Source: Reyranella sp. (GTDB taxonomy: Bacteria > Pseudomonadota > Alphaproteobacteria > Reyranellales > Reyranellaceae). Taken from it: a stretch of DNA of 64,000 bases. The first letter of the stretch is position 1. Every line of letters starts with the position of its first letter. Below are positions 12,840 to 13,025 of this stretch, piece by piece. The stretch is taken from positions 1 to 64,000 of the forward strand of contig JAKFVH010000288.1 of NCBI GenBank assembly GCA_021732285.1, written 5' to 3'. The notes beneath the pieces were generated by a model. The model searched no databases, had not been told where the DNA came from, and saw only the letters and a program-made list of their open reading frames with translations. Position numbers and translations under genes: made by a program.

Positions 12840-12875
12840 AAACAGCTCATATACACAAAATACTTCAGATACCAC
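12840..12875 (-). promoter_or_regulatory. Putative self-protospacer for the mini-CRISPR guide, PAM TTC
   Basis: Minus strand CTTTC|GTGGTATCTGAAGTATTTTGTGTAT versus guide GTGGTTTCTGACGTCTTTTGGGTAT: 21/25 identical; TTC at 12876-12878 (minus). Confidence 0.75.
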
Positions 12876-12877
12876 GA

Positions 12878-12920
12878 AAGGACGTGTATGCTCAGAAAGA
12901 AGGGGCGGCAATCTGTCGGC
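12878..12920 (+). other. Putative CreT-like toxin RNA / mini-ORF start
   Basis: AAAGGA Shine-Dalgarno 5 nt upstream of ATG-CTC-AGA-AAG-AAG (12888), between the protospacer and the repeat-like element. Confidence 0.4.
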
Positions 12921-13025
12921 AATCCGAGGCAGATGCCTCGGCCTCATAGAAGCGTGGTTTCTGACGTCTTTTGGGTATCACACAACCAGCGATCCGATCG
13001 ATTGCCGTCTCTTCGCTCTTTGGAA
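12920..13025 (+). ncRNA. Degenerate mini-CRISPR (CreA/CreR-like crRNA): psi-repeat 12920-12953, spacer 12954-12989, possible decayed second repeat 12990-13025
   Basis: CAATCCGAGGC-AGAT-GCCTCGGCCTCATAGAAGC versus array repeat CCATCCGAGGC-TTCATC-GCCTCGGCCTCATTGAAGC; 7-bp stem preserved; CGATCCGA (7/8 of repeat start) resumes exactly 36 nt later. Confidence 0.8.

Follow-up and report, generated by a model that had tools for sequence, protein, structure and literature searches.

What does a lone CRISPR-like repeat do outside the array, between the two cas blocks of a type I-G locus, and which gene does its guide control? The question is raised by a 64-kb stretch of Reyranella sp. DNA (64,000 nucleotides, hereafter the window), whose source assembly is 81% complete. 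An earlier note on this DNA had proposed that the repeat belongs to a CreTA/CreR-like guide RNA, and had left the controlled gene undecided between a toxin, the cas genes and the adjacent tRNA.

The guide and its target in the window

The following genes surround the module.

4719-9486 (end approximate), minus strand: CRISPR array of about 65 repeats, with crRNA sense on the minus strand
9742-10035, minus strand: cas2
10045-11814, minus strand: cas4g/cas1g fusion
11864-12666, between both cas blocks: gene pair matching Pfam Gp49 and HTH_37
13084-14313, plus strand: csb1 (cas7g), which opens the cas operon and diverges from the tRNA
14313-15785 (start approximate), plus strand: csb2 (cas5-cas6 fusion), the predicted guide-processing enzyme (NCBIfam TIGR02165)
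15752-18826, plus strand: cas3g (NCBIfam TIGR02621)
18679-19869 (start approximate), plus strand: type I-G Cas3-extension family protein (NCBIfam NF049934)

The NCBIfam matches to csb1, csb2, cas3g, cas4g/1g and cas2 place the system in type I-G. Among the genes of the window locus, none could be named as a Csx17-type Cas8g. The module itself includes the following elements upstream of csb1.

12919-12953, plus strand: creA-like guide RNA, psi-repeat part, containing a 7-bp hairpin plus 5' handle (sequence; Rfam CRISPR-DR16)
12946-12953, plus strand: 5' handle ATAGAAGC, last part of the psi-repeat
12954-12989, plus strand: guide (psi-spacer) of 36 nt (sequence, match to the protospacer)
12840-12875, minus strand: protospacer of 36 nt
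12876-12878, minus strand: PAM TTC (sequence; TTN rule across many loci)

The lone psi-repeat scores 36.0 bits with the Rfam CRISPR-DR16 model, and the array repeats score 35.7 bits. It is a degenerate CRISPR repeat located outside the array in which hairpin and 5' handle are kept, as in CreTA guides. The first 25 nt of the protospacer (12875-12851) match the guide at 21 of 25 positions, with mismatches at positions 6, 12, 15 and 21. The repeat look-alike, handle, guide and TTC-flanked target announced by the earlier note are all in place, and direct comparison of guide and target returns the same identity and mismatches. On both strands of the window, no second site for the guide reaches a score of at least 9, and its own target scores 16.6. 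As a chance control at a looser cut-off, only one of 3,668 random window 36-mers had a TTN-flanked local site scoring at least 13. A scan of the window for consensus promoters and terminators gave no match.

The target lies 209 nt upstream of csb1, inside the interval between csb1 and the divergent tRNA, whose 5' end is found 35 nt past the protospacer. This position, together with the fact that guide and csb1 share a strand, is what would be expected if the I-G effector simply repressed the promoter of its own cas operon, as in CreR-type autoregulation, the tRNA being a bystander. CreR is moreover reported to be widespread in type I systems (PMC12737573).

Guide-target pairs across type I-G loci

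The earlier note had suggested searching other I-G loci for a psi-repeat paired with a target in cis. We collected 80 genome and 80 metagenome loci through Csb1 relatives and scanned about 155 of them, over 1.3 kb upstream of csb1, for an ATTGAAG-like handle and, behind it, a guide that partially matches a TTN-flanked site close by. This search identified 43 handle-guide-target matches in 42 of the ~155 loci (these include the near-duplicates L183/L181 and L123/L037, and L110 is a tandem repeat), whereas four scrambled handles gave 0, 0, 0 and 2. With the exact handle and a stricter score, TT-flanked targets were found in 21 loci and each other dinucleotide in 0-2.

The first score tolerates a mismatch at every sixth position and favours that pattern; a phase comparison was run to remove this bias. 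When the free position was shifted, phases 1 to 5 gave 11, 10, 20, 11 and 11 loci, and phase 6 gave 39. Every sixth base is flipped out in type I R-loops. In type I-G, TTN is the reported PAM, and Csb2 makes an 8-nt 5' handle (PMC9638904). Overall, because of the 42 positive loci, the TT rule at the PAM and the peak at the sixth position, putative crRNA-like self-repressors are widespread in type I-G. About 40 loci with a TTN PAM, a sixth-base phase peak and matched negative controls strongly support the earlier proposal of a guide of the CreTA/CreR kind in this type I-G locus. A mere RNA hairpin or operator was also considered as an explanation of the window repeat; it is ruled out by guides and targets that lie on different strands and in varying order across loci, and by the strict PAM and handle.

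The survey also bears on whether the window module could be a functionless leftover, that is, a mini-CRISPR remnant beside a tRNA decaying at a recombination site. The window holds no clear second psi-repeat, and 75 genomes of the family contain nothing closely homologous to the full cassette, which would fit such an origin. However, the guide matches its target far above chance, all tRNA stems are fully paired (see below) and dozens of loci show this pattern again with a strict PAM, which makes a leftover very improbable.

The majority of the CreA-like I-G loci have no tRNA, which is a point in favour of autoregulation, given that many of them have a target upstream of the cas operon. What the targets control there may be small ORFs, further RNA toxins or the locus's own cas operon. 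Additional genome sampling provided one further CreA-like locus (L197/L214) and no additional tRNA case among the loci scanned; a viral contig collection contained no I-G csb1.

Some of the tRNA-less loci resemble each other. In L045, L067, L072, L073, L074 and L081, the target is about 290 nt upstream of csb1, with the guide on the minus and the target on the plus strand, and a short ORF-sized stretch is found at a conserved distance between target and csb1. In these six loci, the arrangement could mean that CreR controls a cas operon headed by a small gene, or else that another small toxin is present. In L037/L123, L125, L118, L124, L134 and L156, a short, hairpin-rich sequence that is not a tRNA follows the target, possibly corresponding to other RNA toxins. 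Finally, clusters of differently degenerated repeats are observed at L155:2679-2900 and upstream of csb1 in L181, with more than one psi-crRNA per locus.

tRNAs whose anticodon contradicts their body

Beyond the target of the window stand a hairpin and the tRNA.

12808-12837, minus strand: hairpin directly 5' of the tRNA, with counterparts ahead of the tRNAs of L144, L155 and L187
12723-12805 (or 12722-12805), minus strand: candidate toxin tRNA with a leucine-type body, A73, no encoded CCA and a serine anticodon (body comparison, stem scan)
12771-12769, minus strand: anticodon AGA, reading serine UCU

This tRNA was initially called tRNA-Ser(AGA). However, its D-arm is identical at 18 of 19 positions to that of a relative's tRNA-Leu(UAG), its best alignments are with leucine tRNAs, and its closest matches among the 75 family genomes are tRNA-Leu(CAA) genes (75-76%). 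It carries the leucine elements A73, A20a and a large variable arm and is devoid of the serine elements G73, C11-G24 and G30-C40 (list of PMC9976931), though it does have the serine-type pair G2-C71. The CCA end is encoded by the normal tRNAs listed for this genome and not by the window tRNA. By its sequence, the window tRNA is thus a leucine-type body under a serine anticodon, which is the conflict of body and anticodon sought in a miscoding tRNA. The comparison of the bodies, with the leucine-like D-arm and the best matches to tRNA-Leu, rules out an ordinary tRNA-Ser, and the pairing of every stem rules out a pseudogene.

In the anticodon loop (CTAGAAA, 12767-12773), a TAG is positioned one base 5' of the anticodon position. 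The loop looks like that of a tRNA-Leu(UAG) slipped by one base to give AGA.

The loci were searched for tRNAs by a scan for stem pairing (T-arm and acceptor stem); ARAGORN at relaxed threshold gave mostly noise. Three further mismatched tRNAs were identified.

L155: serine body, anticodon UUA (ochre stop), behind a CreA-like target
L144: serine body, anticodon UCU (Arg), behind a CreA-like target
L187: serine body, anticodon UAU (Ile), behind a CreA-like target

All four tRNAs found directly behind targets (window, L155, L144 and L187; two are related and three come from metagenome contigs) show a conflict between body and anticodon, and all four lack an encoded CCA. In contrast, the six other confident tRNAs (in L038, L063, L069, L080, L106 and L177) are ordinary and none is beside a target. 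Since every tRNA directly behind a target has an anticodon that contradicts its body, the tRNA itself is the likely toxin. Of the controlled genes left undecided by the earlier note, the evidence therefore favours the tRNA, acting as the toxin; repression of the cas operon is also possible. The L187 tRNA has A73, and bacterial tRNA-Ser prefers G73. The L155 target overlaps a plausible promoter, read by eye as TTGTAA-17-TATGTT.

A strong hairpin precedes all four mismatched tRNAs. It could have a role in processing, in stability or in termination of the opposite transcript.

The three sense anticodons each read the least-used codon of its amino acid in the respective contig (UCU, 5.9% of Ser; AGA, 4.6% of Arg; AUA, 9.8% of Ile). 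The last two of these codons, AGA and AUA, are over-used in the two haloarchaeal CreT toxins so far characterised (PMC8501985).

L144 and L187 allow a closer comparison. Their tRNA bodies are 90% identical and their anticodons differ. The psi-repeat and the start of the guide are identical over 36 nt, and the only difference in the first 13 bases of the targets is at position 6, whereas much of the intervening sequence has diverged. Four loci close to L144 in Csb1 (L154 and L157, 94% identity; L145, 89%; L040, 85%) have the same flanking csb1 and antitoxin-like genes, and lack the target, the hairpin, the tRNA and the guide altogether. Because these four elements are missing jointly, the module, judged from this pattern of presence and absence, behaves as one cassette. 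Together with the conservation seen between L144 and L187 and the preference for little-used codons, we take this behaviour as a sign of selection.

These observations weigh on the bystander reading. The target does lie between the tRNA and the divergent csb1 in all four tRNA cases, the window included. Nevertheless, a bystander tRNA would be ordinary, while those behind targets are all mismatched and without CCA, and ordinary tRNAs are not behind targets. In addition, tRNA and guide are gained or lost together, and in L144, L155 and L187 the tRNA is situated between target and guide. Autoregulation as the sole function of the module is consequently unlikely.

Proposed mechanism and relation to known systems

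Our preferred reading, to which we assign a probability of about 77%, is that the window carries a type I-G addiction module akin to CreTA, in which a miscoding tRNA would be the toxin. We infer transcription, processing, repression, charging and toxicity of the module as follows. Processing of the repeat-guide transcript would fall to Csb2. The guide-loaded I-G effector would then occupy the TTC-flanked, partly complementary site that lies in the tRNA's control region and block transcription of the tRNA without cutting. This corresponds to the CreA mechanism, in which a guide-loaded effector represses through partial complementarity and without cutting (PMC8501985, PMC12737573, PMC9458426). 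If Cascade were lost, the tRNA would be produced. LeuRS, blind to the anticodon, should charge the window tRNA with leucine, and the AGA anticodon should insert this leucine at serine UCU codons, to the detriment of the proteome. For the tRNAs with a serine body (L155, L144 and L187), charging by SerRS is expected, resulting in a wrong residue or, for L155, in readthrough of UAA. Serine identity is described as not depending on the anticodon, and no anticodon base figures among the bacterial leucine determinants (PMC9976931). As neither SerRS nor LeuRS inspects the anticodon, the mismatched tRNAs should miscode. With csb1 diverging from the tRNA on the far side of the target, binding there may lower cas expression as well, in a CreR-like manner.

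The tRNA might instead be toxic without miscoding, either by tying up LeuRS, SerRS or the CCA-adding enzyme, or by sitting uncharged in the ribosomal A site. The absence of an encoded CCA would fit, and known archaeal CreT toxins sequester tRNAs and do not miscode (PMC8501985). However, the bodies have the known identity elements for serine or leucine, and their stems are intact, which leads one to expect charging. Moreover, the anticodon is the one feature that is always wrong, and near-identical bodies carry different anticodons, which points to decoding. Toxicity without miscoding is therefore quite improbable.

CreTA, a type VIII toxin-antitoxin system, was described in the type I-B systems of Haloarcula hispanica and Halobacterium hubeiense and in type I-F of Acinetobacter (PMC8501985, PMC10097628). 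The window module shares with it a crRNA-like guide derived from degenerate repeat(s) outside the array and next to type I cas genes, as well as a PAM-flanked partial match near the control region of a small RNA gene. The candidate toxin RNA would also act on decoding, and two related loci share the rare codons AGA and AUA with CreTA (PMC8501985, PMC10097628). Unlike in CreTA, the effector is of type I-G, and the proposed toxin is not a mini-ORF that sequesters a rare tRNA but a complete tRNA bearing the wrong anticodon. The mini-ORF with consecutive rare codons that characterises the two well-studied haloarchaeal CreTs has no counterpart in the candidate toxin gene; it is a trait of the known toxins and not part of the definition of the module.

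Like CreR, a crRNA-like autorepressor of cas operons, the window guide and target are directly upstream of csb1 and could repress the operon (PMC12737573). Unlike CreR, which is generally free of toxin, the module has a mismatched tRNA, the putative toxin, directly beyond its target. In CrePA, as proposed here, a toxin is repressed by a CreA-guided effector (PMC12737573), but that toxin is a protein, and no toxin protein is found behind the window target.

The four tRNAs also resemble nonsense and missense suppressor tRNAs, in that the body belongs to one amino acid and the anticodon to another, that of L155 being ochre-reading. To our knowledge, known suppressor tRNAs arise as selected mutants or as engineered tools. 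By contrast, the mismatched tRNAs are found repeatedly in a cassette next to cas genes, beyond the target of a CRISPR guide.

More generally, natural miscoding or stop-suppressing tRNAs probably serve as toxins of CRISPR addiction modules: the cell would retain its type I-G system since loss of the latter would free a tRNA that rewrites rare or stop codons. Serine and leucine bodies would be used because their synthetases ignore the anticodon, so that the attacked codon could shift by anticodon mutation alone. Among the openly readable journal papers searched, we found no publication on suppressor or miscoding tRNAs as CRISPR-controlled toxins, and none linking CreTA to tRNA toxins or describing such guides in type I-G, though priority is uncertain. 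As far as could be checked, the kind of module is already known, whereas the class of toxin and the occurrence in type I-G are new. If the proposal is correct, toxin-antitoxin biology would gain a toxin of a new type, an entire tRNA that acts by corrupting decoding, and CRISPR-guided self-repression would extend to type I-G, with dozens of loci under one PAM rule. Wrong-anticodon tRNAs beside cas genes would provide a sequence rule for finding more, and the long-standing question of why costly CRISPR systems are retained would become testable in a new setting. It would also suggest that natural suppressor tRNAs can be regulated weapons and not accidents.

Other candidate addiction-type genes are found next to these cas operons. 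The Gp49/HTH_37 pair of the window, HigB/HigA-like in our own reading, stands apart from the module and lies on the opposite strand. The locus closest to the window in Csb1, L116, has no recognisable guide module and keeps the antitoxin-like gene at the same place. In L144, L187, L154, L157, L145 and L040, the antitoxin-like gene beside the cas operon is one that we take to be DUF1778-like. It adjoins the operon with or without the tRNA cassette, so that two addiction-type modules can be neighbours.
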